A DNA stretch of 64,000 nucleotides, taken from positions 973,501 through 1,037,500 of the forward strand of contig NZ_CP098511.1 in NCBI RefSeq assembly GCF_026222555.1. Direction: 5' to 3'. The position numbers and the translations under genes were made by a program. The notes beneath the pieces are model-generated. The model saw only the letters and a list, made by a program, of their open reading frames with translations, did not search any database and had not been told where the DNA came from. Source of the DNA: Aquimarina sp. ERC-38. GTDB taxonomy: Bacteria; Bacteroidota; Bacteroidia; Flavobacteriales; Flavobacteriaceae. Shown piece after piece: positions 33,486 to 52,311 of this stretch. Numbering within the stretch: position 1 is the first letter of the stretch; each line of letters starts with the position of its first letter.

Positions 33486-36182
33486 TTAAAACTTAAAATC
33501 CAATTTAAGCAGAAAGTATTGAGGCAAAATTTTATTTTCTGAAATTAACTGGTTTGTGTCTCCCACGTAGTACGTAGCAAAAGTATCCGTATTCCAAATA
33601 TTTCGGGCTAGAAACTTAAGGGTAAGGGCATTTTTTTTAATAACGTATTTAGCGTCAAAGTCAGTAAAATAATATGTGTTATCTCGATTAGAATTTCCAA
33701 AAAAATAGCGTTCGTTTGATAGTTTAAAATGAAGTTTTTCACTGACTTCAAAATTCAAATCTAAAAATGACGTATTATTTATATTTGAAACATTTGAATT
33801 GACAGAAACTTCCGAAGTAATTGACTTACTACCAATATGAAAATTAAATACTCCATTATAAATTGACCGTATTTCTACTCCGTAATTAAAAGATCTACTC
33901 CTAATGTCTCTAAGTTCAGAATTATTTACAATATTTTGGAAATTTGTTTCAGAAATGCCTCCTTTGACCTTAAAATTAATCGATAGTTGTTCTACAAATT
34001 TATCTATACTTGTATTCCAGGTATATTGTTCTTTATCATCAAGAATAAAAGTCTCTGATAAACTATAATTGGGCACAATTTCGCTTCTGGAACTTTTATA
34101 TTGATCGTTCTTTAAATAAAGAAATGTAGAATTGATAAGAAATTCATCACTCCAGTTACCATAAACATAATTTGCAAAGAAAAAAGAATTATTTAATTGT
34201 TCAAAATTACCAAGACCTCTGTTAAAATTTCTAAAATTAGTTAATATATATCCGCTTTGTACATCTGAAAAAGAAAAATTCTTTGTTTCATATTCATAAG
34301 CGAATGATAACTTATTTTTTTTATTAATAGAGTAATTGAGACCAATCCCAGGAACTACGTAAAATATAGATTCCGAATTATCAGAACTATTTTGATTTAC
34401 GGTAACAAATAATTGATGTATTTGAAATGACGGTCGTATAACCACTTTTCCTATTTCCCAGCTATATTTTGATTTTAAATATAAATCACTAAAAAGATAA
34501 TTAAGATTATTGGAAAATAAATTATCGTCCGGAAAACTGGTTTGATTATTATTTTTAAATGACAAAGAACTCTTAAGCTTTGAGTTTGTATTTTGATATC
34601 CCAATTTAATATCTAAATTATTCTTGTTGATTTTAGTAATATAATTTCCCTCTAATGCCAAATAATTAAACTTATAATCCACGTTTTGTAAAATAGATTC
34701 TATCTCTTCTTCTTCAGGAAACAAGTTTTCAAAAAGAAATTGATCAACTGAAAAATTTTGAGGCTTTTCATCGTAAGTATATCTTCCAGTTATCAATAGG
34801 GCACTTTTATCTTTTTGCCTTTTAGTATACGTGATTCTTTGATCAATGAATACGTTATCGGTGTCTAATTGTTTATTTATAGATTCATCATTGAAGGTTA
34901 AAGCCTCTCTACTATTTTGCTTACCAATGTTATATTTACTTACATATTCTATCCTACTATCATCATTAATAGAATAGATTCCATCTAATTTTCCAAATCC
35001 GGTGAATAGTTTTTTTCTTATTCTCCCTTCTTCGTTGTTAGTAAAACTATCTTCTCCAATTAAATACTGTATGGTGTTAGTATTAAAAAAACTGATTTCA
35101 TCGGTATTGAAAAAAGCAATCCCTTTAATCTTTAATTTTTCTAATGGATTGTATACTGTATTTAAAGAAGCAAACTCAGAATTATTTAAATTGATACGCT
35201 CTTTTTTAAGATCAGGTTGCAAACCTTCAATATTTATAATATCTATGGCTCCAATATCGTCACCAACATATGTTATATCAGAAAAAACATTTGGATTAAT
35301 AATTTTATAAATATCTCCAATTGCATCTATTCCAGTATTATTTACATTACTAAAAACATAAAATTTGGTGTCTTTATTAAACGAAATAAGATTAAGACGA
35401 TTCTCATAAAAGTTATCGGTTCCATATCCAAGTGAAGCATTTCCGAATAGTGAGGTTTTTTGACCTTGTTTTAAGGTTAAATTGATAGCTACTTTATCAC
35501 TATTTTCAATCCCTTTCAATAGTGGATTATCAGAAAATCGTTGGAGGATTTCAACTTTATCAATACTATTAGAATTTAAGTTCTTGGTTAATAAGCTATA
35601 TCCTTTTTCAAATAAATCATCTCCTTCTATCATTACCTTTTCCACAGCTTTACCTTGCACTTTGATTTGTCCGTCATTATCTACCTCTACCCCAGGTAAT
35701 TTTTTAAGGATATCTTCAGCAATTTCTTCACTGCCATCAGCAAAACGATTTGCTTTGAAAATTATAGTATCTTTTTTTACGGTGATAGCGGCATTAGCAT
35801 TTATAATTACCTGATCCAGGGTAAAAGAATCATTTTTCAAAACTATATTTTTTTCAATTGGTTTATTATGATTCTCTAACTTCAAAGGGATAAAAACGTC
35901 AGCGTATGATAATCCACTTACTTTGATTACATAACTTCCTAACGAATCAATTTGCATCTTATAAAATCCATCTAAATTACTGTAAGTATATGTAACCGTT
36001 TTTGTAGTGTCAGCAGTAAAAAGGACTACATTGGCAAATGAAACCGATTGATTTATTGTGTCCTTTATACTTCCTTGAAGGAAAGTCTGTCCAAAACCTG
36101 AATTTGTAATTATTAGAACAAAAAGTAAAAAAATGTTTTTGTTCGATTTTGGTTTTATATAATTTGACCTTATCATAATCAT
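33486..36182 (-). CDS. Outer-membrane beta-barrel protein with carboxypeptidase-like domain (TonB-receptor-like)
   Basis: The 898-residue exported protein has a signal peptide, a carboxypeptidase-regulatory-like beta-sandwich (about 35-115), a plug-like domain (about 130-225, with LPGVEVDNDGQIKVQGKAVEKV) and a long beta-strand-rich barrel ending in an aromatic residue (LKLDFKF). This layout matches the OMP_b-brl_3 family rather than full SusC receptors. It is the third gene of a leftward unit after a small secreted protein and a GLPGLI protein. The substrate is unknown; such pairs may take up or export peptides. Confidence 0.85.
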   Translation of the reverse strand: MIMIRSNYIKPKSNKNIFLLFVLIITNSGFGQTFLQGSIKDTINQSVSFANVVLFTADTTKTVTYTYSNLDGFYKMQIDSLGSYVIKVSGLSYADVFIPLKLENHNKPIEKNIVLKNDSFTLDQVIINANAAITVKKDTIIFKANRFADGSEEIAEDILKKLPGVEVDNDGQIKVQGKAVEKVMIEGDDLFEKGYSLLTKNLNSNSIDKVEILQRFSDNPLLKGIENSDKVAINLTLKQGQKTSLFGNASLGYGTDNFYENRLNLISFNKDTKFYVFSNVNNTGIDAIGDIYKIINPNVFSDITYVGDDIGAIDIINIEGLQPDLKKERINLNNSEFASLNTVYNPLEKLKIKGIAFFNTDEISFFNTNTIQYLIGEDSFTNNEEGRIRKKLFTGFGKLDGIYSINDDSRIEYVSKYNIGKQNSREALTFNDESINKQLDTDNVFIDQRITYTKRQKDKSALLITGRYTYDEKPQNFSVDQFLFENLFPEEEEIESILQNVDYKFNYLALEGNYITKINKNNLDIKLGYQNTNSKLKSSLSFKNNNQTSFPDDNLFSNNLNYLFSDLYLKSKYSWEIGKVVIRPSFQIHQLFVTVNQNSSDNSESIFYVVPGIGLNYSINKKNKLSFAYEYETKNFSFSDVQSGYILTNFRNFNRGLGNFEQLNNSFFFANYVYGNWSDEFLINSTFLYLKNDQYKSSRSEIVPNYSLSETFILDDKEQYTWNTSIDKFVEQLSINFKVKGGISETNFQNIVNNSELRDIRSRSFNYGVEIRSIYNGVFNFHIGSKSITSEVSVNSNVSNINNTSFLDLNFEVSEKLHFKLSNERYFFGNSNRDNTYYFTDFDAKYVIKKNALTLKFLARNIWNTDTFATYYVGDTNQLISENKILPQYFLLKLDFKF

Positions 36183-36373: not shown

Positions 36374-37135
36374 CTATTTATTCGGAAAAAATTCTAAATG
36401 ATTTACTTCTGTTTCATTAACTTCAACCGTTGCGCCTCTAGGTAGCTTACCCTTAATTGACTTAACAATTGAGTTTACCAGTTTACCTCTCTTTTCAACA
36501 TAATTTTTAAGACTTATTGTTTTTCCAGAACGTGATAAATCCTGAATATTCTGACTATGTGGAATATTAATTGACTCAACTAAAAATTCAACCTCTCCTT
36601 TACTATCTCGTGCTTCTAGAATAACTCCTGGAAGCCCGTGGAGTTTCCAGGGACCAAAAGGAATTGGAATGCTAGTAGCGTACCAGGCGGTGTAGGAACG
36701 ACCACGAAATTCACAAGTTGCTTTGGTACTCAATAAATCACCAATATACTTTTGCTGTTCATGTAATGTCCAATTAAGCTTGGGTTTTTTTTCTTTGATT
36801 ATATACGTTTCCCCTTTTATCCACACAGTTCTCGTGAATAAAGAATCTTTCTCAAAATCAGTTTTATTAATAGTACCTATTGAGTCATTAATATTTACTT
36901 TAATACTTACATTTCCTAATTCACCGCTTTCTTCGGTATTTTTTTCGCTCATTTGATCATTCCAAAAGAAAATTGATTGTTTTTGATTAGAAAACAATGT
37001 TGATTTATAGTTTTTTGGGGTGCCATCAAGACTAATATTAAAATCATAGACAATTTTGCAATTAGTTTGGATTTCTTGCGAATATGCGTAATAACAAGAA
37101 ATTAATACTATTACTGTGTTGATTAAATTTTTCAT
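36374..37135 (-). CDS. GLPGLI family protein
   Basis: The 253-residue protein has a signal peptide (about 1-20) and the family-defining segment HGLPGVILEARD. GLPGLI proteins are periplasmic or surface-associated, restricted to Bacteroidetes and usually encoded beside a beta-barrel protein, as here. Their function is unknown. The start lies 11 bases after a perfect stem-loop (37146-37175). Confidence 0.9.
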   Translation of the reverse strand: MKNLINTVIVLISCYYAYSQEIQTNCKIVYDFNISLDGTPKNYKSTLFSNQKQSIFFWNDQMSEKNTEESGELGNVSIKVNINDSIGTINKTDFEKDSLFTRTVWIKGETYIIKEKKPKLNWTLHEQQKYIGDLLSTKATCEFRGRSYTAWYATSIPIPFGPWKLHGLPGVILEARDSKGEVEFLVESINIPHSQNIQDLSRSGKTISLKNYVEKRGKLVNSIVKSIKGKLPRGATVEVNETEVNHLEFFPNK

Positions 37136-37185: not shown

Positions 37186-37560
37186 TTAATTTATCGCGTC
37201 ACTAAGAGATATCCTCGCCTGTCGTGTTAACTCCCTAATTGTTGAAGCAACGCTATCGCAAGGAATATCTTTTGCTGTTAAAGTAACGGAGGCACTCGTG
37301 GAAGACACACCTACACTTACTGTAACTGATACATCAACTGTACAAAAATCCTCTAACAAAAGTTGAATTTCTTCAAAGTTATTAAATTCATCTTTAGAAG
37401 AAATATCAAGATTAATAACTGTTGTTTCATTTTCGCAACTAGATGTTATAACAAAGTTTGTTCTGTGATTTGAGTCATTCTCAACTGCAAAAGTTGTTCC
37501 AGCAAAAGTTGTTCCAGCAAAAGTAAGAAATGCAATAAGTGTTAAAAATAATTTTTTCAT
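37186..37560 (-). CDS. Small secreted hypothetical protein
   Basis: The 124-residue protein has an N-terminal signal with a duplicated FAGTT segment coded by a 15-bp tandem repeat, followed by a domain rich in Ser, Thr and Val (VSVTVSVGVSSTSASVTLT) and three Cys residues. It matches no family I know. As first gene of the unit with GLPGLI and a beta-barrel protein it could be an exported substrate or partner of them. Confidence 0.7.
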   Translation of the reverse strand: MKKLFLTLIAFLTFAGTTFAGTTFAVENDSNHRTNFVITSSCENETTVINLDISSKDEFNNFEEIQLLLEDFCTVDVSVTVSVGVSSTSASVTLTAKDIPCDSVASTIRELTRQARISLSDAIN

Positions 37561-38084
37561 TTTATTATAAATTTATTAATTTGTTTCCTACTCTATTAAA
37601 AAAGGCTTTTCGGATTCCGCCTGGTCATTGCGCAATGATGTTTTGTATTCATTTTATAAAAAGTTACTTAGACAATTCATACAGAAAATATTCATCTGTT
37701 CTATCATATCTTTGCAAAATTGTAATATGGAAAAAACATCTAAATAACATTTTAAGAAACCGTTCGTTTTTTGATTGAAGCAAAGATGTGGGGTATTTAA
37801 TTATTGTACAACAGATCATTCCCTGTTTTTTAAAAATACCAACCTTATTTTTAAAAATAATGGAGATGTTTTATGTTATTACTAAGCTTTCAGTTTAATT
37901 ATAGTAATTAGATATAATAACTTGAACACTAAAGATATCTCAACTGTTTACGTTTTAGAAAATTTTGATAATAGTGAATTAAAGATCTAGATTTTTGAAC
38001 TAAAAACTCTTTTGATTTTATGGTTTAGCCAGGTATAGTATCTTTAAATAAACTTTAGCTATTTAATTTATAGTTTGCCTTATA
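37561..38084. other. Divergent intergenic region
   Basis: This 524-base AT-rich gap separates the leftward secreted-protein unit from the rightward regulator and must hold both promoters. A TATCTTTG box on the plus strand at 37707-37714 matches the -7 consensus, but lies far (about 370 bases) from the regulator start. No convincing gene is present; the 79-codon open frame in its left part shows no gene-like features. Confidence 0.5.
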
Positions 38085-39836
38085 ATGATCTTTATTACTA
38101 GATTCGCTTTCCTCTATTTTGTATCTCACTGTTACCTCTATTCCCAAGACATTGAATCGAATCTTTTTGGCACTAAAAAAGATACACTACTAACAAAATC
38201 ATATGACGAAATTTACAAACTTCATTATGATAACTATGAAATTGATAGTCTTTATAACTTTTATGCCAAAGCTTTCATAAGAAAAGCATATGAAGAAAAA
38301 GATACAGCCAGAATTACTATTGGCTATTATGTATTAACATACAAGAATTTAAATAGTAACCTTCAATTTAATGATAGCCTGATTAAGTACGCTAATATGT
38401 TAAAATCTTATCAATGGTCCTGGCAAGGTTACGACAATAAAGGAGTTATATATAATGATAAAAGAAACTTTCAATTAGCATTAATTAATCATGTTAAAGC
38501 TTATAATATAGCAAAGGAGTATGGACTTAAGGATTATCAAATCAGTTCTCTACTAAGTCTAGGTATTTTAAAAGAGCGAATCGGTAGGTATGAAGAATCT
38601 TTACAGAATTTTAAATTAAGTACAATATTTTTAAAAGAGAAAATAGAGAAAACTGATAGTATTGATGAAAGTCTACAACAGTCTTATCTCAATAATTTAC
38701 ATATCTTAAGCAATTCATATCGCTTAAATAAAAAGTTAGATTCTGCCAAAATTATAATTAATGAAGCGAAACAATATCAAAAATTTGAATGGGCTTTTAG
38801 AAGTCTGAATAAAATTAAATTAAATGAAGCAGAAATTGATTATGATTCGAGAAAATACAAGAATGCAATTAAAAACGGGACGTTTGCTATTTCTCATTTT
38901 ATCGAAGATGAAGATGAGAAAAGCGTTGCTGCTTGCTATTATATAATAGGCATGTCACATTTTAAATTAGGCTACAAAGATATCGGTATAGATTATTTAA
39001 TTAAAATGGATAGTATATACTCAAAATTAGGAAGCATATACCCCCCTGTTAGATCAGGTTATGAGAATTTAATTTCATATTTTAAAAAGAAAAAATATAT
39101 AGAAAAACAATTATATTTTGTTAATCAACTATTACATTTTGACAGTATTGCACATGATAACTATACATTTATATATGAACACTTAGTAAATAATCTGGAA
39201 AAACCCGAACTATTAAAGCAAAAAGAAGAATTAACTAAGCAATTAAAAGGTAAAAATAAAAAAGTTCGATATTGGGTTTTTACAGCACTATTTGTAATTA
39301 TAATATTGTTATTTGAAATTGTAAGAAGGAAGAAATTATTATTAAAAAAAGAAAAAGAAAAAGAATTACTAGAAATAAAATTTCAAAAAAGGTTTGATGA
39401 TCTGGTAGGAAAAACCAAGAAATCTTATTCTTATAAATCCACTAATATAGAAGATGAAAATTATACTGATAATTTAGAAATTTCAAAACCAGTAGTATCT
39501 GATATTTTAAAGCAACTTAAGCGGTTTGAAGAAAATCAAGATTACATAAATTCTGAACTAACTGCTACCATATTAGCGAAACAATTTAACACTAATGCAA
39601 ATTATTTAGGACGTATTGTAAAGTTTCACCATCATAAAAGTTTTAGACAATATGTAAATGATTTACGAATAGACTTTGCTTTAGATCAAATTCGTAATAA
39701 TTTAAAATTTCGAAATTATTCTATATCTGCAATAGCTAAAGAAGTAGGTTTTAAAAATACTGATCCTTTTACCAAAGCTTTTAAAAATAAGGTAGGTATA
39801 AATCCTTCTGATTTTTTAAAAAAAATTTCGAAATAG
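38085..39836 (+). CDS. Membrane-anchored TPR regulator with C-terminal AraC-type HTH
   Basis: The 583-residue protein has an N-terminal signal-like segment, TPR-like helical repeats through about 60-370, a transmembrane helix (about 395-411), a charged linker, and an AraC-family helix-turn-helix at about 489-583 ending NPSDFLKKIS. The layout puts the TPR sensor in the periplasm and the DNA-binding domain in the cytoplasm. It directly precedes the GG-peptide/protease cassette on the same strand, and the leftward GLPGLI unit diverges from it, so it is a likely regulator of either. A ligand could be a peptide, but this is inference. Confidence 0.88.
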   Translation: MIFITRFAFLYFVSHCYLYSQDIESNLFGTKKDTLLTKSYDEIYKLHYDNYEIDSLYNFYAKAFIRKAYEEKDTARITIGYYVLTYKNLNSNLQFNDSLIKYANMLKSYQWSWQGYDNKGVIYNDKRNFQLALINHVKAYNIAKEYGLKDYQISSLLSLGILKERIGRYEESLQNFKLSTIFLKEKIEKTDSIDESLQQSYLNNLHILSNSYRLNKKLDSAKIIINEAKQYQKFEWAFRSLNKIKLNEAEIDYDSRKYKNAIKNGTFAISHFIEDEDEKSVAACYYIIGMSHFKLGYKDIGIDYLIKMDSIYSKLGSIYPPVRSGYENLISYFKKKKYIEKQLYFVNQLLHFDSIAHDNYTFIYEHLVNNLEKPELLKQKEELTKQLKGKNKKVRYWVFTALFVIIILLFEIVRRKKLLLKKEKEKELLEIKFQKRFDDLVGKTKKSYSYKSTNIEDENYTDNLEISKPVVSDILKQLKRFEENQDYINSELTATILAKQFNTNANYLGRIVKFHHHKSFRQYVNDLRIDFALDQIRNNLKFRNYSISAIAKEVGFKNTDPFTKAFKNKVGINPSDFLKKISK

Positions 39837-39954
39837 AGCTTATCTTTTAGATTTTAACCCTTTTTTTTAAAAATAGGGTTATAAAGTCAATTTTTATAGT
39901 TGTTTATATCCTAATCTTGTTTTTCTTTGTTTGAGAAATTTAAATTATTTGAGT

Positions 39955-40125
39955 ATGAAAACTTTAAAACAGTTAAAAAACCTTGAACTAACCAATCTAC
40001 ACTATATAGTAGGGGGTGATGGTGATGTTGGGCCTGGTGATAAAAAAGGCAAAGACAAGGATAAACCTAAACCTTCAAATCCCAAACCACCATCTACACC
40101 TACTCCAATAATATCTAGTGATTAA
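39955..40125 (+). CDS. Double-glycine-leader small peptide 1
   Basis: A 56-residue peptide starting MKTLKQLKNLELTNLHYIVGG. The leader ends in GG with hydrophobic residues spaced as in double-glycine leaders cleaved by C39-type exporters. The remaining 35 residues are rich in Lys, Pro, Asp and Gly, contain no Cys, and end PTPIISSD. The ATG at 39955 is preferred over an upstream TTG. A related peptide lies before the next protease gene (41823). A stem-loop follows, then an S8 protease. I recognise no described family; it could be a RiPP-like or signalling peptide. Confidence 0.72.
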   Translation: MKTLKQLKNLELTNLHYIVGGDGDVGPGDKKGKDKDKPKPSNPKPPSTPTPIISSD

Positions 40126-40141
40126 AAATAATATTATAAAA

Positions 40142-40170
40142 TTGAGCGAGTATGTAATATACTTGCTCAA
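40142..40170 (+). promoter_or_regulatory. Stem-loop between GG peptide 1 and its protease
   Basis: TTGAGCGAGTAT pairs with ATACTTGCTCAA with one mismatch around a five-base loop. It ends eight bases before the protease ATG and lacks a following U-run, so it could limit read-through or protease translation. Confidence 0.6.
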
Positions 40171-40178
40171 ATTATCAT

Positions 40179-41768
40179 ATGAGAAAATTTAGTATACTTC
40201 TAATCTTGTTTTCCTTAGTTACACATGGTCAAACATTAAAGAATAAAGATCATTATCTTTCTAAACAACTAGTAAATGATATTAAGTTCAAAGAATGTAT
40301 AATTTTCATTAAAGACTGTCTTGTTATTAAGGCAACCCCTAGTGTAGTCGCCGTACTTGATAGTGATATGGATATTAATCATAAAGGATTAAAACCTTTT
40401 ATATGGAAAAATCCGCAAGAAGTCATTGATGGTATTGATAATGATCAAAATGGATATATTGATGATTTAAACGGATGGAATTTTATTGGGCAAAAATGCA
40501 ATGGTGAAAGTTTAGTATTTACTTCTATGGAAGAAACTCGTATTCTTAGAAAATATAGTAAGAACTATGTTGATAGTCTTTTTTCAAATAATACAATTCC
40601 ATATCAATATGAAGATGTTAAAAAATCATTTGAATCACTGTTTAACGCAGCAAAAGAGACTGTTGATATTTATGGAGAACAGGAAGGTAATTATACCTTA
40701 GTTATAGATACTTTAAAAATTCTAATGAATAAAGAAGATATAAATCGATTTGACCTCATTAATTATAAAACTAATAATGATACTATTCAAAATTACCTGA
40801 ACTTTGCAAAACACTATTACGATACCGGATTTCCATATAAACAATTTATAAAAGAACTAAATTTCAATAAAAAAGTTTTACAATTTGCTTTAAATCTAAA
40901 TTATGATAATAGGGATTTAATAGGTGATCAAGTCGCAAATATTAATGATAAAACATATGGAAGTCCTAAATTTAATTTGATAACTGATAAAATAAGCCAC
41001 GGAACAGAAATTGCTGGGGTCATAGCGTCATTACTTACGAATGGTGATAGTTCTTTATTTTTATCAGAAAAACTACAAATTATGCCTATCATAATAACGG
41101 GTAATGGTGATCCTACTGATAAAGATATTGCACTCGCTATACGATATGCAGTAAATCAAGGTGTTAAAGTAATTAATCTAAGTCAAACCAAGACCTTCTC
41201 AATAACTGAGAATTTCATCGATAATGCACTTGCCTACGCAGAAAAAAAAGATGTTCTTATTGTTAAATCCGCCGGTAATGAATCTATAAACCTAGATAAA
41301 AAAATTAGATACCCCAATGATATTGATAATAATAATAAAGAACTTTACAATAACATGATTGTTGTAGGATCATCTACTAAAAATTTAGATAGCACGCTTT
41401 TAGATTCTAGTTCAAACTACGGGAAGGATTATGTTGATATTTTTGTTCCAACTGATGAAGTAAAAACTTTTTTGCCCAATGATAAACTTTCTATAGAGGA
41501 CGGAGGAACATCATATGCTGCACCAATAATTGCTACTCTTGCTTTATTGATTCGATCATATTATCCTACACTTACCGCACCTGAGGTTAAAGAAATTATT
41601 ATGAAATCTGGTACTCCGTATGATATAAATGTAGAAATTACTCGAGAAGATGGTTCTAAAGAAATGGTTCCCTTCTCATCCCTTTCAAAATCAGGAAAAA
41701 TTGTCAACGCCTACAACGCCATTAAAATGGCGGAAAAAATTTCAAAAAGACAACTATCTAATAATTAA
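40179..41768 (+). CDS. Secreted subtilisin-like (S8) serine protease, island copy 1
   Basis: The 529-residue protein has a signal peptide (about 1-18) and a complete S8 triad: Asp61 (in VLDSD, where the usual DSG is DSD), His274 (SHGTEIAG) and Ser445 (GGTSYAAP), with oxyanion Asn367 (SAGN). The Asp-His spacing of 213 residues is far larger than in subtilisin and holds a charged helical insertion preceded by a Ca-site-like DNDQNGYIDD. No prodomain or type IX sorting domain is obvious. The conserved C-terminal SSLSKSGKIVNAYNA segment is shared with copies at 42077 and 56088. It directly follows GG peptide 1, making the peptide a plausible substrate or partner. Confidence 0.88.
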   Translation: MRKFSILLILFSLVTHGQTLKNKDHYLSKQLVNDIKFKECIIFIKDCLVIKATPSVVAVLDSDMDINHKGLKPFIWKNPQEVIDGIDNDQNGYIDDLNGWNFIGQKCNGESLVFTSMEETRILRKYSKNYVDSLFSNNTIPYQYEDVKKSFESLFNAAKETVDIYGEQEGNYTLVIDTLKILMNKEDINRFDLINYKTNNDTIQNYLNFAKHYYDTGFPYKQFIKELNFNKKVLQFALNLNYDNRDLIGDQVANINDKTYGSPKFNLITDKISHGTEIAGVIASLLTNGDSSLFLSEKLQIMPIIITGNGDPTDKDIALAIRYAVNQGVKVINLSQTKTFSITENFIDNALAYAEKKDVLIVKSAGNESINLDKKIRYPNDIDNNNKELYNNMIVVGSSTKNLDSTLLDSSSNYGKDYVDIFVPTDEVKTFLPNDKLSIEDGGTSYAAPIIATLALLIRSYYPTLTAPEVKEIIMKSGTPYDINVEITREDGSKEMVPFSSLSKSGKIVNAYNAIKMAEKISKRQLSNN

Positions 41769-41822
41769 TTTTATTTCTACCATTAAAAATTGGATAAAAC
41801 GAAATTTTTTGGGAAGGCTGCA

Positions 41823-41993
41823 ATGTCAGAAAACAGATTAAGGCTTTTAACAAATTTGAACTTAAAAATTGTAGGTGGTGAATCACCAATTAATGATGGA
41901 GAAAAATAGAAAAAAGGTGAAAAGGGATCAGGAGGAAGTAATTCTAAACCTCCGGCTTTACCAAATCCTATAATTAGTTCCGGTGAAAAATAG
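41823..41993 (+). pseudogene. Double-glycine-leader small peptide 2, interrupted by an amber codon
   Basis: The frame starts MSENRLRLLTNLNLKIVGGES, again a GG leader, and stops at TAG 41907-41909 after 28 residues. The same frame continues with KKGEKGSGGSNSKPPALPNPIISSGEK to a second TAG at 41991-41993, closely matching the C-terminal half of peptide 1 (Lys/Gly-rich then PxPIISS). One substitution in a Lys or similar codon would restore a 56-residue peptide. A stem-loop and a second S8 gene follow, exactly as for peptide 1. Confidence 0.7.
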
Positions 41994-42026
41994 TTATAGG
42001 TTTACCTTGTATATTTTATAAATTCT

Positions 42027-42061
42027 AAAAACTGCTATTAAAGAAAAGTAATAGCAGTTTT
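42027..42061 (+). promoter_or_regulatory. Perfect stem-loop between GG peptide 2 and its protease
   Basis: AAAACTGCTATTA pairs exactly with TAATAGCAGTTTT around an eight-base loop, ending 15 bases before the protease start. The trailing TTTT could allow partial termination. Confidence 0.65.
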
Positions 42062-43333
42062 CTCAAAAATTTAATCTTGATTTTACGTGTTTTATTAATA
42101 ATCCTTCTGGTAAATACACTAGTTGCTAAAAAATCTAATGATTCCAATTTACTTAAAAATGAATGGTGGATGAGGACTTGGAATAAAGATAGTCTTCCAG
42201 GCATTAGTTTAAATGCAGCCTTTCATAATAATAATTTACCTAAACAGAATACCGATACTATTATAATAGCGGTATTGGATTCAGATTTTGACACAAAGCA
42301 TAAAGATTTAAAAGAATATTTTTGGGTAAATCAAAATGAAATTTCAAATAATTCTTTGGATGATGACAGTAATGGATATGTAGATGATAAATATGGTTGG
42401 AATTTTTTAGGCATCAAAGGTCAAAAAAAAGCGCTAACCTTTACATTAATGGATGAAACACGAATACTATCGAAATATTCTGAAGAAGCTTTTGGTAATC
42501 TCAAGGAAGAGAAAGGTTTACCTTTCACTTTTGAAGAAGTCAAAAAATCATATGATTCCATTATTTCAGAAATAAAACAAGATATTGAATATAATAATCA
42601 AATTATTCAAGGGTATTCTAAAACCATAGAAATGTTGGAGCTTAAACCTAATGATTCGGTAATAGATTTTTCCACAATTAATTCTGATAATATAGAAAAC
42701 GAATCTTTGCAGCAATGGGTTGAATATTTATCGTATTTATTTGATGAAAGTTACAATTATACTGATGTACTACATGATTTAAAAATCTCGGAAAAATGTT
42801 TAGAAATCTGTATGAATTTAAATTATGATAATCGTGAATTGGTAGGAGATAATTATACTAATTTTTTAAATATTAATTACGGTAATTCATATTTTAATCA
42901 GAACAGTAGATTTCTTGAGCATGGCACGGCAATATCTGGAGTTATATCTTCTATACTTCAATTTCAAAAAAATAATGGAAACACCTTAATAAAAATAATG
43001 CCTATAACTATAACAGGTATTGGTGATTTTACCGACAAAAATCTTTCTTTAGGAATAAGATATGCTGTTGATAATGGTGCTAAAATTATTAATATAAGTC
43101 AGGGTAAAAAATTTTCAATTCAAGAAGATTTTGTAGATGATGCTTTAAAGTATGCTGAAACACATGATGTTTTGATAGTCAATTCTGCAGGAAATGAAAA
43201 TGAGAATGCGGACGATATCATAAAATATCCTAATGATGTAAATAATAAGGATAAAGAAATTGTAAATAATTTTATAGTTGTTGGTGGTAGTACTAAATCA
43301 ATAAATAAAAATTTAAGAGAAGGAGATTCGAGA

Positions 43334-44718
43334 GTGTAAACTGTACTCTGTCTGATTAAAATTTTAGTTTAATTTTAATGAGATATTATGACAACACAAG
43401 AACAACAAGAATTAGAGAAGAAGGCACTAGAGCAATTTATGTCTGGTAAGAGTCTTTTTAGTAAAGATGGTGCTTTTGCACCAATGCTTAAAAGTTTTAT
43501 TGAGAAGGCTTTAGCGTCTGAGATGGAAGGTCACCTGGACGATGTTGAACGTTCCAAAGGAAACAAACGTAATGGCAAGGGCAAGAAGACCATCAAGAGC
43601 GGTTTTGGGACTTTTGATATTGAAACCCCTCAAGATCGTCTCAGTAGCTTTGAACCAGAGCTGGTCAAAAAGCGGCAAAGTATCCTGGCAGACAACCTTT
43701 CAGATAAAATAATCGGTCTCTATGGCCTAGGGATGAGCTACCGTGATATCTCTTCACACATCAAAGAGATGTACGACACAGAGATCTCCCATACCGTGCT
43801 AAGCCAGATTACAGATAAGATCATTCCGGATGTAAAAGCATGGCAGAACCGTCCTCTAGAACCTTTATACTGCATCGTCTGGTTAGATGCTATGCACTAC
43901 AAGGTTAAAGTAGAAGGGAAGATCGTTCACAAGGCACTTTACAACATCTTGGGAATTAACAAAGAGGGGCAAAAAGAAATACTAGGGATATACTTATCTG
44001 AGAGCGAAGGTGCTAACTTCTGGTTGCAGGTACTCACCGACCTTAACAATAGGGGGCTTGAAGATATTTTGATAGCCTGTACCGATAACCTAAAAGGATT
44101 TACTAATGCGATACTCGGTGTTTTCCCCAAAGCTGAGGTTCAACTTTGTATCGTTCACCAAATACGTAACTCCTTAAAGTATATAGCTTCAAAGGATCAA
44201 AAGGAATTTATGAGGGACCTTAAAAAAGTCTATCGGGCAACAAATAAACAAGTGGCAGAGGATGAACTGGAAAAGCTATCGGGCAAGTGGGAAGAAAAAT
44301 ATCCGGTAGTCATTCAAAGTTGGCAAAACAACTGGGAGCATCTATCACAGTACTTTAAGTATACAGCACCTATTAGAAAAATCATCTATACCACCAACGC
44401 TGTAGAGGGGTACCATCGCCAGGTACGCAAAGTAACCAAGACCAAGGGTGCCTTTACAAATGATATGGCACTGCTCAAGCTCGTTTACCTTGCTACGATG
44501 AACATCCAGAAAAAGTGGACAAGCCCTCTCCACAACTGGAGCTCTACCATACAGCAACTTTATATTATCTTTGAGGATAGGATAGACCTGGATATTGGTA
44601 AAAACCAATCAAAACGTGTCGCTGACGCTAGGTCGCATTCCAAAATCAGTCGAAAACAAGTTTCGACTAATTTTGAAATGGATAAGAAAAAATAACTCAG
44701 ACAGAGTTTAATTTACAC
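43334..44718 (+). mobile_element. IS256-family insertion sequence
   Basis: The element is about 1.39 kb with imperfect 22-bp inverted repeats at 43334-43355 and 44697-44718 (19 of 22 matching, sharing ACTCTGTCTGA). Near-direct repeats GAGATTCGA and GAGATTTCA flank it but are imperfect, so the target duplication is not certain. It interrupts the second S8 protease gene. Confidence 0.85.
43388..44695 (+). CDS. IS256-family transposase
   Basis: The 435-residue mutator-type transposase has a DDE triad of Asp167 (WLDAMHYKV), Asp233 (CTDNLKGF) and Glu340 (TTNAVEGYHRQVRK). The frame is intact. Its GC content is visibly higher than that of the surrounding protease gene, consistent with recent arrival. 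Confidence 0.95.
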   Translation: MTTQEQQELEKKALEQFMSGKSLFSKDGAFAPMLKSFIEKALASEMEGHLDDVERSKGNKRNGKGKKTIKSGFGTFDIETPQDRLSSFEPELVKKRQSILADNLSDKIIGLYGLGMSYRDISSHIKEMYDTEISHTVLSQITDKIIPDVKAWQNRPLEPLYCIVWLDAMHYKVKVEGKIVHKALYNILGINKEGQKEILGIYLSESEGANFWLQVLTDLNNRGLEDILIACTDNLKGFTNAILGVFPKAEVQLCIVHQIRNSLKYIASKDQKEFMRDLKKVYRATNKQVAEDELEKLSGKWEEKYPVVIQSWQNNWEHLSQYFKYTAPIRKIIYTTNAVEGYHRQVRKVTKTKGAFTNDMALLKLVYLATMNIQKKWTSPLHNWSSTIQQLYIIFEDRIDLDIGKNQSKRVADARSHSKISRKQVSTNFEMDKKK

Positions 44719-45091
44719 TACCGGAGATTTCAAATTACGGGAAAAAAAATGTTGATGTATTTGCTCCGGGACAGGCTATAAATACTTTAACTCCTAATAA
44801 TAGTTCTAACTTATCAGACGGAACCTCTTTTGCAGCAGCGATAGTTACAGGAATATATGCATTGATCCGTTCTTATTACCCATCTTTGACAGCTCATGAA
44901 ATTAAAAGAATTCTTATAGATTCCGGTACTTCTTACGATATTAAAGTAGAAATCACCCAAAAAGACGGATCAAAAAAACTAGTTCTTTTCTCTTCTCTTT
45001 CCAAATCAGGAAAAATCATTAATGCTTATAATGCATTATTAATGGCAGAACAGCTATCAAAAAGATAGTTTTAGAAAAAATATTATAACAA

Positions 45092-45631
45092 ATAACAAAG
45101 CTTAGCGTAAAAATCCTTGAAAAACTCTTTGTTTTCACTATCTCCTTATTATTTATCACCTGTTCTTCAAACGATGACGAAGAAGATTGTATGAAAATCA
45201 TAACGTTTCCCGGATATCAAGTAGGTGGTACCATTCAACCTGAACGAAAATTAGAAGTACCCTGCGATTTTGAAGAGCCGGAAGAAAATGATATTATTAC
45301 CATCCCATCTCTCGAAAACTTTTCTTATAACGTAATTCAATTTGAGTTTACACAAGATACCGTTGCTAAAACCGATAGGTTACAATTTCAAATTGAATTA
45401 AATAATAATAATAATTTTAAAGCAATCGGTTTTCCTTACTTAACTCTCAGATATGACGATGGTATAGAAGTTTCTACTAGTTATGCAAATGATGCTATCA
45501 ATGCTTGTTTAGAGATTGAAGCTAATGGGAGTTGTTTGCATACTTATGATAAAACCTTTAATGGTGGTTCAAGCCAAATAGTTTTAGACACTTTCCAACT
45601 TAAGAAAGTTGAATACTTATTGACAGAATAA
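45092..45631 (+). CDS. Putative lipoprotein following the protease cassette, start unclear
   Basis: The in-frame ATG at 45191 gives 146 residues, but the same frame upstream encodes a basic then hydrophobic stretch ending in a lipobox (LEKLFVFTISLLFITCSS), clearly a lipoprotein signal. No ATG, GTG or TTG precedes it; only an ATA at 45092 follows the last upstream stop. Either a rare start is used or the original start was lost. The mature part is acidic with Cys residues and beta-strand-rich. It sits just downstream of the S8 gene and may be a surface partner of it. Confidence 0.6.
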   Translation: MTKLSVKILEKLFVFTISLLFITCSSNDDEEDCMKIITFPGYQVGGTIQPERKLEVPCDFEEPEENDIITIPSLENFSYNVIQFEFTQDTVAKTDRLQFQIELNNNNNFKAIGFPYLTLRYDDGIEVSTSYANDAINACLEIEANGSCLHTYDKTFNGGSSQIVLDTFQLKKVEYLLTE

Positions 45632-45975
45632 CCAGAAGAACTAATTCTGAGTCCATTTTAATACATTCATAGTTTACTTTGAGTTAGTAAAGATCTTGAA
45701 TTTGTTTGTAGTTTGAAGGTATATAGTGATGGTTAGGCAGTGTTTCGTAAGGGAAAGAGTTAAAGATAAAGCACTGACCATTTATTTGTATTATTGTTTT
45801 TTGTGGTTTTAGCGAAACACTATTTTGAAAAGCTGCGTAGCAGCACAATCAAAATAGATAGTTGAGCTAATTCCGCCACCAAGGCGGGATCTCCTAAATT
45901 CTAACACAAAGTCTATTAAGTTCGATAAATCGGTTCATTTTTTAAGTTTATAATTTAACACTTAAATGAACTGAT
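45632..45975. other. Intergenic region with possible recombinase site
   Basis: This 344-base gap contains a short GC-containing palindrome (CTGCGTAGCAG, about 45832) and, just before the recombinase start, GTTCATTTTTTAAGT (45933) with the imperfect inverse ACTTAAATGAAC (45960-45971). These could be resolvase-binding repeats. No gene is visible. Confidence 0.4.
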
Positions 45976-46665
45976 ATGTTATTTGGATATGCACGTATAA
46001 GTACCGCGTCTTAGAAATTTGATTTACAAATCGATGCTTTGTTAAAAGCAGGAGTAAAAGAAAAGAATATTTATAAAGATGTTTCCTCTGGAGCAAAAGC
46101 AAATCGGAAAAAATTGGATTTGCAATTAAGTAAATTGCGTGAAGAGGATGTAGTCATTGTTTGGAAGATGAATCGAATCGCAAGAAGTGTAGGACATATG
46201 CTAAAACTCGTCGATGAATTTGAACAATTGGATGTAGGCTTTAGAAGTTTACAAGAACCTTTTACAGATACAACTTCCGCACACGGAAAATTTGTGTTGA
46301 CCATTTTTAGTGCCGTTGCGGAAATGGAGCGTAATATAATCGTAGAACGAATATTAGCCAGACAGGAAAGTGCCAGGAAAAGAGGCGCTAAGATTGGTAG
46401 GAGAAAAGGTTTAAGTAAAATGGCTGAAGCAAAAGCAATCCTGGCAGAAAATTATTACCGGGATGAAAAAAACCAGCTCTCTATTACTGAAATAATGAAA
46501 CTAGTCGATATTAATTCCAAAGCCACTTTATACAAATATTTAGCGCATTGTGGTCGTAGGAACTGTATGATTTGTAAAGCTACTTTTTGGGATAAGAATC
46601 AAGATGTAAATAATGCATATTGCAGAAAACACATAAAAAAACCGAGGGAAAAAGTGGTATCTTAA
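45976..46665 (+). pseudogene. Serine recombinase/resolvase with in-frame amber stop
   Basis: Translation starts MLFGYARISTAS, giving the catalytic Ser9 in the resolvase motif YARxST, then hits TAG at 46012-46014 where most relatives have Gln. The frame continues with KFDLQIDAL and the rest of a normal resolvase: RLxR-like MNRIARS, the conserved EMERNIIVERI segment and a C-terminal HTH, about 229 residues in total. Restart inside the gene would lose the nucleophile, so it is probably inactive. Confidence 0.85.
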
Positions 46666-46751
46666 TGTTATTTTGCTAAATTAGAAGCAGTAAAATTATG
46701 AACCACCCCATGTTTGAGGTTTACTTCAGGTGTAGGGTTATTTATTAAATC

Positions 46752-47348
46752 ATGGGGTTAAAAATAAGTACAATAGCTGCTATACCTGAAAATGTAAATA
46801 GAGATTATTTATATATATTAGATTACTACAATTGGGATGAACCTATAGGGAATACTCTAAGAAACAGTTTTGATAAAATTGCAAAATTCGCTTCTGAAAA
46901 TAATTCAATAGCGATCCAAGGTATTCCCGAAAGCCATTTTTATTCCGAACTTTGGTCTTGGGAATCAATTAATGGTATCGATCCAAAAGAATTATTACCT
47001 GCTTTGATGATCACTACGATACATCCAAAATATTTTTTAGAAAGAAATGATAAGGATGTAAAAAAAGAAAAAAATTCAGAGGACAAATTAGTTTTCATAA
47101 AGATCGCAAAAGTTTGTAAAACTCCTCGAGATGTTTTAAAACTTATTGAAAAGATTTTCAGTGATATTCAAAACCATAAAAAAATTTGTGATTTTCAAGT
47201 AAAAAGTGAACTGAGTGAAGGAATTGGAAAAATTCTAAATGATACTATAATCTTAGAACCCGACATAGCAGGAGTCGGAATAAATATTAATAATATCTGT
47301 AAATTTTTGTCAAAAAAGCAACTCAAAAAAATTAAAAAATCTATATAA
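46752..47348 (+). CDS. Hypothetical protein
   Basis: A 198-residue soluble protein with alternating helix and strand segments, not recognised. A Lys/Glu-rich low-complexity stretch lies at about 102-112. It follows the broken recombinase on the same strand and precedes a tiny coiled-coil frame and the HEPN-like/AAA pair, so it may be accessory to that module. Confidence 0.6.
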   Translation: MGLKISTIAAIPENVNRDYLYILDYYNWDEPIGNTLRNSFDKIAKFASENNSIAIQGIPESHFYSELWSWESINGIDPKELLPALMITTIHPKYFLERNDKDVKKEKNSEDKLVFIKIAKVCKTPRDVLKLIEKIFSDIQNHKKICDFQVKSELSEGIGKILNDTIILEPDIAGVGININNICKFLSKKQLKKIKKSI

Positions 47349-47366
47349 GCGATAAATTAAAGTAAT

Positions 47367-47474
47367 ATGAGTGATCATAATAATGAAGAAACAACTAATA
47401 GAATAGAACTATTTGAGAATGAGGTAAGCGGGCTTAAGAAAGAGATTCAAAAACTTAGAATTTTCATTGATTAG
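47367..47474 (+). CDS. Possible 35-residue coiled-coil peptide
   Basis: A short frame MSDHNNEETTNRIELFENE... with a heptad-like pattern (IELFENEVSGLKKEIQKLRIFI). It lies 18 bases after the preceding gene and 60 before the next. It could be a real small protein or the degraded start of a larger one. Confidence 0.35.
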   Translation: MSDHNNEETTNRIELFENEVSGLKKEIQKLRIFID

Positions 47475-47534
47475 GTAACAAACTAGAAGAGTTCAATTAT
47501 ATAAATTGATTTATACCATTCATAAACCGAATTA

Positions 47535-48245
47535 ATGAATATAAAGGACTATTTAAAAAGACTAAATAATAATTCGCAAGAAATTTTTAATAAATCAATT
47601 CATGACACGGAAAACTTAGGAAGAGCACATCACTATTCTTCGTTTATTGGTGAATTTTCGAATTATGTTTTTGATAAGAATGAAGAAAGAATGATTCTTA
47701 CAGTGGCAATCCAACTTGAATCGGCTAGTTTCAATTTAATTTATGGAATGTACCGAGAAGCATTTTCTTCATTAAGACTGGCTTTTGAACTTGGGCTTGG
47801 AGCTATTCATTTTTCTATACATAAATTGGAGCAAAATGAGTGGATGAAAGGTGAAAATGATATTAAATGGTCTAAATTGATAGATAATGAAAATGGAGTT
47901 TTATCAAAACGCTTCTGTAATGCTTTTTTTCCGGAAGCATCAGAGTATATCGAGGACTACAATGATAAATCTAGAAATGCTTATAGAAGAATGTCAGAAT
48001 TTGTGCACGGAAATTATGAAACTTGGAGTAAAAGTGGCCTTAAATTGAAATTTGATCCACAGCTTAAGAAAGACTATTTTGAACTCAATAGTGATATTTC
48101 TAAAATATTAATATTTATGCTTTGTTGTCGATATTTAAAATCACTAACTCAAGAAAATAAAGAATCTATATCTGAATTTCTTCTAGAAGAATTGAGACAT
48201 ATATCTCCTGTAAGAGAATATTTGGGGGGTGCAAAAGAACTATAA
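47535..48245 (+). CDS. HEPN-like helical protein, partner of the AAA ATPase
   Basis: The 236-residue, all-helical protein has a segment RRMSEFVHGNYETW (about 154-167) that resembles the conserved R...H region of HEPN-type and DUF5677-like proteins. It ends one base before the ATG of an AAA ATPase gene, so the two are a tightly coupled pair. HEPN-ATPase pairs often act in phage defence; that role here is inference. Confidence 0.6.
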   Translation: MNIKDYLKRLNNNSQEIFNKSIHDTENLGRAHHYSSFIGEFSNYVFDKNEERMILTVAIQLESASFNLIYGMYREAFSSLRLAFELGLGAIHFSIHKLEQNEWMKGENDIKWSKLIDNENGVLSKRFCNAFFPEASEYIEDYNDKSRNAYRRMSEFVHGNYETWSKSGLKLKFDPQLKKDYFELNSDISKILIFMLCCRYLKSLTQENKESISEFLLEELRHISPVREYLGGAKEL

Positions 48246-48246
48246 T

Positions 48247-49827
48247 ATGACAGAATTTAAACTTAGAACTGAAAGCATCAAAGATGACGACATAACATTG
48301 CTTGCTGTAAAAAATAAGAATGATAAAAAAATAATTAAATCTTTACTTTCATCAGAACCATGCTTGTTAGAAGGTTCTAGGGGTACTGGAAAATCTTTTC
48401 TTATGAAGATTGCACAAATAAAATTGGAAAAGAAAGAATTAGCTTTATCTATATTTATATCATTCAACATAAGCTCTTTAATAAATACCAGAGATAATTT
48501 ACAATTTTATCATTGGATGTTGGCAAAAACGCTTAGAGCATTAATGAATAAATTAAGAAAAAAAGGATTATCCATTTCAAATTATTCAAAAACTTTATTA
48601 AGTAATGATTCATCAGAAAATGACAAAACTATTGAGAAAAATTTGAAAGAGATTGTAAGACTTTTTGAAAATTCATACAGTCAGCAATGCACAAATGTTA
48701 ATGTGGAAAAACTTCCTGACATAGAAGACGTTAAGGAGGCAATTCAAGAAATCTGTACTAAAAACAACCTAGATAGAATTTATTTTTTCTTTGATGAGGC
48801 TGCTCACGTTTTCAGACCAGAACAACAAAGACAATTTTTTAATCTATTTAAAGATTTGAGATCTCCATATATTACTTGTAATGCTGCAATATATCCTGGG
48901 GTTACACATTTCGGAGATTCTTTTGAACCAATTCATGATTGTATATATGAAGTGCTTGAAAGAAATATAGCAGACAGTGACTATTTAGAATATTTTAAAA
49001 AATTGGTATCGAAACAAGCTGACACAGGTTTGACAAAAGCATTAAACACTCAAGTTGAACTATTTAATACTCTTGCGCTATCATCTGGAGGTAACCCCAG
49101 AATTTTATTGAAGACTATTCAAGAAATGCAAAAGTTTAATACGAATGAAGCCAATAGAATTATTAAGGATTTTTACCGAGTTAAAATTTGGTCGGAACAT
49201 ACTGAATTGGGAGAGAAATATAAGGGTCATCAATCCTTGATTGACTGGGGTAGAGATTTTCTCGAAAAAACTGTTATACCAGCTATTTTAAAAAATGAAA
49301 AATCTAGTATCTATTTTTGGATCAGTAAAAATGTCCCCGAGACAGTTAAGGAATCTCTTAGACTATTGACTTATACAGGAATTATAAGAAAGCTTGATAT
49401 AGGTATTCGTTCACATGGAGAATTAGGTAATAGATACGAGGTAAAATATGGATGTATAATAGCTTTAAAGCCCAATCCTCATTCTTATTCAAAAGAATTA
49501 TTTGAGATTCGAGATATTAGACGTTTCAATGAATTTAGCAGTAATAAAAAGGAGTATGAAAAAATTGAAAATCTTTCTGCATCTATTCTTGAAGATGAGC
49601 AGTATATAGAGTCCCTTGAAAGTATGCTTAATAAATCTATTGATGTTTTGTCTCTAACAAAATGGCAAAAGGAAAGATTGAAACATTCAGGATTTCAAAC
49701 CATTAAAGATTTATATGGCTTAAAAGAAAAAGTACTAATTGAGAAGATATATAATGTGGGACCCGTAAGGGCAAGAATTATGATGAATGCGGCCAATTCT
49801 GAGTTGTTAGAGTATATTTCAGGGTAA
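48247..49827 (+). CDS. AAA-type P-loop ATPase with C-terminal helix-hairpin-helix
   Basis: The 526-residue protein has Walker A GSRGTGKS (43-50) and Walker B IYFFFDEAAH (Asp184/Glu185), resembling ORC/Cdc6-like and STAND-adjacent ATPases of defence islands. A middle winged-helix-like region follows. The C-terminal segment (about 470-520, GFQTIKDLYGL then VGPVRARIMM) resembles the DNA-binding helix-hairpin-helix seen in RNA polymerase alpha C-terminal domains. The ATG at 48247 is preferred to an upstream GTG that would overlap the preceding gene. Confidence 0.75.
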   Translation: MTEFKLRTESIKDDDITLLAVKNKNDKKIIKSLLSSEPCLLEGSRGTGKSFLMKIAQIKLEKKELALSIFISFNISSLINTRDNLQFYHWMLAKTLRALMNKLRKKGLSISNYSKTLLSNDSSENDKTIEKNLKEIVRLFENSYSQQCTNVNVEKLPDIEDVKEAIQEICTKNNLDRIYFFFDEAAHVFRPEQQRQFFNLFKDLRSPYITCNAAIYPGVTHFGDSFEPIHDCIYEVLERNIADSDYLEYFKKLVSKQADTGLTKALNTQVELFNTLALSSGGNPRILLKTIQEMQKFNTNEANRIIKDFYRVKIWSEHTELGEKYKGHQSLIDWGRDFLEKTVIPAILKNEKSSIYFWISKNVPETVKESLRLLTYTGIIRKLDIGIRSHGELGNRYEVKYGCIIALKPNPHSYSKELFEIRDIRRFNEFSSNKKEYEKIENLSASILEDEQYIESLESMLNKSIDVLSLTKWQKERLKHSGFQTIKDLYGLKEKVLIEKIYNVGPVRARIMMNAANSELLEYISG

Positions 49828-49888
49828 CTTTGAGGACATTTATAATTTGATTTTAATCCGAAGGTCATTAATTATAAGAATTAAAACA

Positions 49889-51457: not shown

Positions 51458-51555
51458 AACTCTTTTACATAGATGCTAAAAATTATAGCTGCTCTTTAAG
51501 ACAGCAATGCTTTTTAGCTGAACCGTTAGCAAGAGTTCAATAAAACGATAATAAA

Positions 51556-52311
51556 ATGGCAGGAAAATATGATGCATATTTAGTGTGTAAAAATGGACAC
51601 GGAATAAATAGTTCCTATTTCACGAGTCCAGAATTTAATCAAGCCTTTTGTACAATTTGTGGAGCAAAAACCAAAAAAGACTGTCCAAATTGTGGAAAAG
51701 ATATTGAAGGAAAAATACACTATGAAAATATAGTTGACCTTTCTAGTGGAATTGTATCCGTCCCAGAAATATGTAAACATTGTGGAAAAGACTTTCCTTG
51801 GAAATCAAAAATAGAAAAAATAGCGAAAAATATTACTAAAATTGATAGAGACAACCTATTACTTTTAGAAACAATTTTTGATAAATTCCATTTGGTAGTA
51901 AAACAAATTCGTCAAAGATATGATGACAGAGAAACACTTGATGTTAGAGATGAATATGACACTCAAGACTTATTACATTCACTTCTGAGAATTTATTTTG
52001 AAGATATCAGAACTGAAGAATGGAATCCAAGCTATGCAGGTTCGTCAACAAGGTCTGACTTCCTTCTAAAAAAAGAAAGTATAGTAATTGAAGTTAAAAA
52101 AACAAGACCTAATTTAAAAGCAAAACAAATTGGGGAACAATTAATAATAGATATTGCTAAATACAAAACACATCCGAATTGTAAAACCTTATACTGCTTT
52201 GTTTATGACCCTGATGGGTATATAAATAATCCAAAAGGAATTGAAAATGATCTAAATAATGACACGTTAAATATGAAGGTAAAAGTAAAAATCGTTCCAA
52301 AAGGACATTAA
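51556..52311 (+). CDS. Zinc-ribbon protein with DpnII/MboI-like nuclease domain
   Basis: The 251-residue protein opens with a DUF2321-like zinc region with Cys pairs at 32/35, 43/46 and 73/76. The C-terminal domain carries a PD-(D/E)xK pattern, Asp168 (RSDFLLK) and Glu179-x-Lys181 (IEVKK). It is preceded by DLLHSLLRIYFEDIRTEEWNPSYAGSS, a region I associate with the REase_DpnII-MboI family. It is likely a DNA-cutting effector in a defence system; no cognate methylase is nearby. Confidence 0.8.
   Translation: MAGKYDAYLVCKNGHGINSSYFTSPEFNQAFCTICGAKTKKDCPNCGKDIEGKIHYENIVDLSSGIVSVPEICKHCGKDFPWKSKIEKIAKNITKIDRDNLLLLETIFDKFHLVVKQIRQRYDDRETLDVRDEYDTQDLLHSLLRIYFEDIRTEEWNPSYAGSSTRSDFLLKKESIVIEVKKTRPNLKAKQIGEQLIIDIAKYKTHPNCKTLYCFVYDPDGYINNPKGIENDLNNDTLNMKVKVKIVPKGH

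Follow-up and report, generated by a model that had tools for sequence, protein, structure and literature searches.

The DNA analysed here, called the window below, is a stretch of 64,000 nucleotides from Aquimarina sp. ERC-38, a member of the Flavobacteriaceae in the phylum Bacteroidota (NZ_CP098511.1, positions 973,501 to 1,037,500 of the forward strand), and all coordinates are positions in it. Our subject is a gene cassette at 38085-45631, in which an initial annotation had seen two consecutive units, each made of a gene for a peptide of about 56 codons with a double-glycine (GG) leader, a stem-loop and a gene for a secreted subtilisin-like (S8) protease, behind a membrane regulator that joins a tetratricopeptide repeat (TPR) part to an AraC-type helix-turn-helix (HTH). 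The first unit is intact and has all the parts ascribed to it, while the second, which had been taken for a working copy, is broken. In related genomes the constant pair consists of the regulator and the peptide, and the protease is an accessory.

The regulator gene (38085-39836, plus strand) does precede the units and gives Pfam TPR_12 and HTH_18 matches. Judged by eye from the sequence, its product starts with a signal peptide followed by a TPR superhelix; sequence and alignment, also inspected by eye, point to a hydrophobic membrane helix at about residues 396-413, followed by Arg/Lys, between the TPR part and the AraC-type HTH at residues 497-579. Because the signal peptide precedes the TPR part and the hydrophobic helix with its Arg/Lys precedes the HTH, the TPR part is predicted to lie outside the inner membrane and the HTH in the cytoplasm. 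The structure model of the regulator (predicted local distance difference test, pLDDT, 84) matched TPR proteins in a fold search, in which RRNPP-like and other TPR proteins were indistinguishable.

The open frame of the 56-residue precursor peptide (39955-40125, plus strand) begins 118 nt behind the regulator stop. Its leader ends in IVGG and its core, GDGDVGPGDKKGKDKDKPKPSNPKPPSTPTPIISSD, ends in TPIISSD and contains Ser/Thr and no Cys. By eye, the leader keeps the GG and part of the hydrophobic spacing seen in relatives, and it scores under the threshold of the leader profile built from them. A homologue search among 5.8 billion proteins returned no match to the peptide, which shares too few words with anything; UL135 and ComC, which appeared as matches of single peptides, were set aside as low-complexity or weak. 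Next comes a stem-loop (40142-40170, plus strand; folding z -4.9), which may serve as an attenuator or terminator. Folding at z <= -2 was found in 17/23 of the relatives' gaps before an S8 or S9 gene and in 22/34 of the stretches after protease-free peptides. S8 protease 1 (40179-41768, plus strand) has its active-site Asp, His, Asn and Ser all in place, with 212 residues between Asp and His, and it falls outside the clade of housekeeping S8s described below. With respect to LanP-type proteases it thus has the S8 fold and an intact active site, and its export is predicted from a signal peptide recognised by eye. As the initial annotation stated, the window contains no exporter: no C39 match was found within it, and all three C39 peptidase matches of the genome (two strong, one weak) lie elsewhere.

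Unit 2 is a relic because its peptide frame carries an in-frame TAG and its protease gene is split by an IS256-family insertion sequence. The peptide 2 relic (41823-41993, plus strand) has a GG leader, starts with the ATG at 41823 and is stopped after 28 codons by the TAG at 41907-41909; the later part of the frame ends in PNPIISSGEK. A stem-loop follows at 42028-42061 on the plus strand (z -2.5 for the stretch 41985-42080). S8 protease 2 is represented by a first part at 42077-43339 and a last part at 44712-45068, both on the plus strand, with the insertion sequence between them (43333-44719, plus strand, ends approximate; transposase 43388-44695; terminal repeats 43333-43365 and 44687-44719). 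Two near-identical copies of this element (99.4-99.6%) are present in another stretch of the same genome. The PxPIISS end that had been noticed in both peptides is indeed common to peptide 1 and the peptide 2 relic, and at a paralogous locus of the same genome (L011), where the peptide is frameshifted, the PIIS end is still kept.

The regulator-peptide pair in related genomes

At the loci of related genomes that carry an extra S8 gene, the regulator and protease genes are separated by a small open reading frame whose leader follows the pattern KLxLxKxxIxKLxxxxxIxGG. A profile made from 26 such leaders, with the window peptide excluded, gave 77 matches at or above 12 bits in 1.22 Mb of collected loci and none in the reversed sequence; the 77 matches fall on 75 frames with 72 distinct sequences. 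Three of the frames are duplicates from loci of the window's own genome, and 25 had themselves served to build the profile. Apart from one match, at L055, each is preceded on its strand by a TPR-AraC gene at a distance of less than 1.5 kb. Seen from the regulator side, a leader peptide (>= 8 bits) accompanies 65 of 87 regulator frames, six of which are present twice, and 36 of the 43 regulators at loci fetched through the regulator alone have one within 1.5 kb. The spacing is also conserved: the peptide starts 75-169 nt behind the regulator in 59/65 cases, and by the same measure the window has 122.

The pairing is confined to one branch of TPR-AraC regulators, since a phylum-wide draw gave a leader peptide at only 11 of 28 regulator loci and none at the other 17 (L241, L244-L252, L255, L256, L259-L263). 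The relatives' small frames are coding and under purifying selection, because the ratio of nonsynonymous to synonymous differences (pN/pS) was 0.25-0.57 in all eight peptide pairs compared between related genomes, some of which share a row. The coding signature on which the initial annotation had made its proposal depend is therefore present in relatives; no close relative of the window peptide was found for the same measurement. Among the matches listed, the open-licence literature held no description of TPR-AraC and GG peptide pairs.

Several variants were seen beside these pairs. In another family of the order (L253, L257, L258) the TPR-AraC gene is not followed by the unit of GG peptide and prolyl oligopeptidase, which is encoded on the other strand. 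A lower-scoring TPR-AraC branch (L246, L248, L249) is followed by a conserved Lys/Glu-rich protein of 58-62 residues that has no GG leader. The genome of the window itself has a further pair of regulator and GG peptide (L142, G000:C1:936000-950000), with a copy of the same IS256-family element on either side.

Proteases beside the pair

The S8 protease of the window belongs to a widespread family: matches at E <= 1e-60 were found in 135 of 149 genomes of the bacterial family and in 52 of 52 genomes of the genus. The initial annotation had regarded an unusually long stretch between the catalytic Asp and His as the hallmark of the cassette. The length that it saw in S8 protease 1 is real; in the 70 aligned S8s in which the stretch was measured, it comprises 195-235 residues in 18/18 housekeeping members and 205-223 in the 52 others, so that a long Asp-His stretch is a mark of the S8 family and is ruled out as a mark of the cassette. 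In the tree of the same 70 proteins the 18 housekeeping members form a clade (support 100/100); no TPR-AraC gene was found in the flanks examined, and no GG-leader peptide was seen beside them. Of the remaining 52, 38 lie within 7.5 kb downstream of a TPR-AraC gene, and short contigs carry some of the others. The window contains a third S8 gene (56088-57737, plus strand), overlooked at first, which is of cassette type by its tree placement and by its 60% identity to the S8 of the cassette at L110; neither a regulator nor a peptide was found beside it. An S8 scan of the wider genome contigs gave five distant loci, and none of them had a leader peptide at or above 12 bits.

When the 87 regulators were examined for proteases within 7 kb on the same strand, 23 had S8 alone, 9 had an S9 prolyl oligopeptidase alone, 12 had both and 43 had neither, a mix that depends on the choice of loci: a protease is present at 34/38 loci in the set led by S8 and at 6/43 in the set led by the regulator, all six being S9. 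Within 1.5 kb, 32 of 62 regulator-peptide pairs have neither S8 nor S9. Regulator, GG peptide and S8 are thus repeatedly linked, as had been proposed, but the constant pair is not peptide and protease, because only 6/43 regulator-fetched loci and 30/62 pairs have a protease; it is regulator and peptide.

The presence of a protease goes with the composition of the peptide. Cores of pairs with S8 or S9 within 1.5 kb have on average 1.07 Cys, against 2.44 in those without (62 pairs, p 3e-6), and 9/30 protease-linked cores are Cys-free as against 0/32 of the others, in a comparison in which most protease-free cassettes come from five genomes and only two queries served to recognise proteases. For one core (L223) the cut was misplaced in this comparison, but it contains Cys with either cut. 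The difference may mean that peptides closed by thioether rings can do without a protease, whereas linear peptides undergo trimming or turnover by such an enzyme.

Lanthipeptide dehydratase genes and the divergent operon

The leaders of the relatives' peptides point to lanthipeptides. The 'class I lanthipeptide' leader model NF038153 matched 19/27 of these peptides at E <= 1 and 10/38 others at E <= 0.01, and TIGR04149, which describes radical SAM-modified GG peptides, matched 7/27 at E <= 1 and 4/38 at E <= 0.01. Class I precursors of Bacteroidetes have been described to carry the leader motif LxLxKx5L, often with a terminal GG, and to occur with split LanB enzymes (PMC7268733). Such a split LanB, which the initial annotation had missed, is encoded in the window on the minus strand by a glutamylation-domain gene (Lant_dehydr_N, 59386-61650; the only PF04738 match of the genome) and an elimination-domain gene (Lant_dehydr_C, 58510-59379; E 5.5e-61), 19.5 kb from the cassette, with a resolvase and a tyrosine recombinase in between.

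LanB and the regulator tend to occur in the same genomes. With LanB counted by its N-domain PF04738 and the regulator at E <= 1e-100 in the bacterial family and E <= 1e-120 in the genus, 15 of the 149 genomes of the family have LanB and 29 the regulator (both 13, LanB only 2, regulator only 16, neither 118; Fisher p 3e-9), and among the 52 genomes of the genus these numbers are 41 and 42 (both 39, LanB only 2, regulator only 3, neither 8; p 9e-6), the p values being given without correction for phylogeny. Genomes of the genus with LanB contain 0-13 regulators (median 5) and those without it 0 or 1; as many as 13 copies occur in genomes with a single LanB match (G177, G193). Extra S8 copies did not track LanB significantly in the genus (p 0.17). 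The association also extends to gene position: the regulator lies about 1 kb from LanB in 7/15 LanB genomes of the family, at least 16 of the 41 LanB genomes of the genus have the two within 5 kb of each other, and at four loci (L051, L053, L057, L058) the gene order is LanB, LanB C-domain, TPR-AraC, GG peptide and S8. At L051 a C39 transporter then follows the S8 gene, and the locus also has a 431-residue membrane-anchored frame that is HlyD-like by eye. Four genomes (G018, G148, G160, G195) have LanB and no regulator at the cut-off, and one (G127) has LanB and a regulator with no leader peptide beside it. Cys is present in 53/62 of the relatives' cores and absent from 9/62, and LanC (PF05147) was found in 15 of 25 genomes searched, this genome and nine others lacking it. 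With these leaders and this co-occurrence, the earlier idea of a LanP-like protease fits, and the association that the initial annotation picked out is real and conserved and its type was sensed correctly, while a trait of the protease family was misread as special and a probable bystander gene as a component.

Upstream of the regulator, on the minus strand, an element matching the DUF805b RNA (37578-37630; Rfam RF02914 match 37585-37623) lies 17 nt before the ATG at 37560 and is divergent from the regulator. It leads a gene for a secreted protein of 124 residues (37186-37560), which is followed in the same direction by a GLPGLI family protein (36374-37135; TIGR01200, E 3.2e-35) and by an 898-residue protein with a CarboxypepD_reg-like domain, of outer-membrane type by eye (33486-36182). 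This DUF805b-led operon is a likely target of the regulator, and its first two genes are candidate output genes. A search of 29 other regulator loci found DUF805b at the Rfam gathering score in 9 of them; in 11 housekeeping-S8 loci there was none. A covariance model made from 11 elements, with a stem of four pairs of which two show changes on both sides, found none in 20 control loci (242 kb), and the 75 regulator loci yielded 25 elements (E <= 0.01); the comparison is confined to regulator and control loci, for an element first noticed through its nearness to regulators. Of the 25, 20 are divergent from a regulator (17) or LanB (3) and lie upstream of it at less than 3 kb; upstream stretches of this kind account for 18% of the sequence of the regulator loci. 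Among the 14 elements that had no part in building the model, 9 are so placed. By eye, the small proteins encoded by many DUF805b-led genes have a leader that is either Sec-like or of another GG type. A palindrome common to the upstream regions of the window and L011 falls inside the DUF805b region; it occurs too seldom for its meaning to be assessed. The match in the window reaches the gathering score of the known RNA family; what differs here is its position, divergent from TPR-AraC genes and before genes of small secreted peptides. Among the open-licence papers listed for this element, none used the word DUF805. As separate observations, some of the DUF805b-led small secreted peptides have, by eye, a second type of GG leader (for example L208, L213, L218, L229), and the 37186-37560 protein has by eye a Cys-framed stretch like those of DUF805b-led proteins in L118 and L056, possibly a recurring family.

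The lipoprotein gene that follows the cassette had been counted as one of its components. It forms with a resolvase gene a block (45147-46613) that is duplicated elsewhere in the genome (L144, 87-93% identity), on which ground it was rejected as a cassette part and is probably a bystander. The copy at L144 sits behind another cassette of TPR-AraC, peptide and two S9 genes, and the block is possibly a mobile unit. Between cassette and LanB, the stretch 46039-55629 has the appearance of an integrated mobile element, with a resolvase, an ORC-CDC6-like ATPase, a DnaB-like helicase and a tyrosine recombinase. A short open reading frame at 57813-58127 fuses MazE-like and PemK/MazF-like stretches and is perhaps a decayed toxin-antitoxin pair.

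A possible peptide-sensing circuit

Whether the regulator senses the product of its peptide gene, as had been suggested, can be approached through the covariation of the two. Over 62 pairs, the similarity of cores correlates weakly with the identity of the TPR parts when HTH and linker are taken into account (r 0.113, p 0.004), and still does so at p 0.029 once pairs with TPR identity >= 0.45 are removed; no correlation was seen with HTH or linker identity. This indirect signal is consistent with sensing of the peptide by the TPR domain. We give about even odds to the reading of unit 1 as a satellite cassette that belongs to a LanB-linked system for ribosomally synthesized and post-translationally modified peptides (RiPPs) of Bacteroidota, in which case it is most likely a peptide-sensing circuit; the S8 and S9 enzymes probably act in maturation or turnover.

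In such a circuit the precursor would be recognised through its leader and, in most relatives, dehydrated by the LanB pair of the genome; a C39 transporter whose gene lies at another place would then export it after cleavage behind the GG. Once past the inner membrane, the peptide would be trimmed or removed by S8, a task that in other cassettes would fall to an S9 prolyl oligopeptidase or to both enzymes. The TPR domain of the membrane regulator would bind the product, and the cytoplasmic AraC domain would then switch the cassette together with the divergent operon, which in the window runs from 37560 down to 33486. The window cassette would represent a diverged type, with a weak leader, no Cys and no LanC match, and its peptide may travel unmodified; with no Cys in the core and no LanC found, the product should not be a lanthipeptide. 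Three observations weigh against a LanB-linked circuit: this genome gave no PF05147 match, the window peptide combines a diverged leader with a Cys-free core, and two genomes (G154, G152) have a leader peptide with S9 or S8 and no LanB.

Known systems offer partial likenesses. The members of the RRNPP group, Rap, NprR, PlcR, PrgX and Rgg, work with peptide processing. In the RRNPP pairs of Firmicutes, a TPR receptor gene stands next to the gene of a small communication propeptide and the receptor is intracellular (PMC10075063). The window likewise has a TPR superhelix and a propeptide gene next to the receptor gene, but its TPR part is by prediction (signal peptide and helix, by eye) extracytoplasmic and followed by a membrane helix and an AraC-type HTH, a GG leader marks its peptide and the host is Gram-negative. 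By analogy, the regulator may be a trans-envelope version of the Firmicutes TPR pheromone receptors. TPR genes also occur near GG precursors in the Bacteroidales RiPP clusters BGC2 and BGC9, for which pheromone binding by TPR domains is mentioned (PMC10352776), but those clusters are of radical SAM or LanM types and no pair of TPR-AraC and GG peptide is described in the section on them. The nearest likeness is to the class I lanthipeptide precursors of Bacteroidetes (NF038153, lant_leader_L1a; Walker et al. 2020, PMC7268733): the relatives share with them the leader motif, the GG site, the C39 transporter, the split LanB and neighbouring S8 or prolyl oligopeptidase genes. Here, however, the precursors are dispersed, most have a TPR-AraC gene of their own, and the core in the window and 9/62 of the relatives' cores have no Cys.

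This likeness underlies the chief alternative, namely an ordinary class I lanthipeptide-type biosynthetic locus, whose peptide would be a secreted antimicrobial or similar, whose TPR-AraC protein would regulate the cluster in answer to another cue, and whose S8 and S9 enzymes would be LanP-type leader proteases. We regard it as possible, if rather doubtful. LanB does lie beside regulator and peptide in many relatives, L051 adds the C39 transporter and the HlyD-like frame, the leader is of NF038153 type, and both subtilisin-type (LanPA) and prolyl oligopeptidase (LanPB, in class III clusters) enzymes have been described (PMC7268733). The S8 and S9 genes resemble LanP genes in standing next to the precursor and, in relatives, to LanB, but they also occur in cassettes with no LanB neighbour, and the removal of the leader by them is a prediction. 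Many regulator-peptide pairs, moreover, have no recognised downstream partner, a genome with one LanB match may contain up to 13 regulators, and core similarity tracks the TPR domain, all of which speaks against an ordinary locus.

It is unlikely that the window cassette is a decaying remnant devoid of function in this genome, whatever its relatives do. Such decay would agree with the double breakage of unit 2, the frameshift in the L011 peptide, the insertion sequences and recombinases around the cassette, the diverged leader and the lack of LanC, but unit 1 retains three open frames, a complete protease active site, the usual spacing and a C-terminal motif common to the relic and the paralogue. 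Least probable is that the peptide is an inhibitor or a chaperone-like propeptide of S8 encoded in trans, as the adjacency, shared direction and a stem-loop that could set stoichiometry might suggest, given that both S8 and S9 are absent from the 7 kb around the regulator, on its strand, at 37/43 regulator-fetched loci, of which 30 do have a leader peptide, that 32/62 pairs have no protease within 1.5 kb, that S9 replaces S8 elsewhere, that the GG leader is of export type with no inhibitor family match and that no such peptide was seen at housekeeping S8s.

Beyond the window, we propose more tentatively a family of Gram-negative trans-envelope circuits, in which each TPR-AraC regulator would have its own GG precursor of lanthipeptide type, up to 13 channels per genome would share one LanB, S8 or S9 would serve linear (Cys-poor) signals, and the output would be divergent operons led by DUF805b and encoding small secreted proteins. 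If this is true, Bacteroidota would possess many-channel peptide signalling that is assembled from lanthipeptide components and corresponds, in Gram-negative bacteria, to the TPR pheromone systems of Firmicutes, and since receptor and peptide genes lie side by side, every pair would be directly testable. The dispersed precursors would explain LanB genes that have no precursor nearby, the S8 and S9 proteases beside LanB would acquire a role, and the DUF805b RNA a biological setting.

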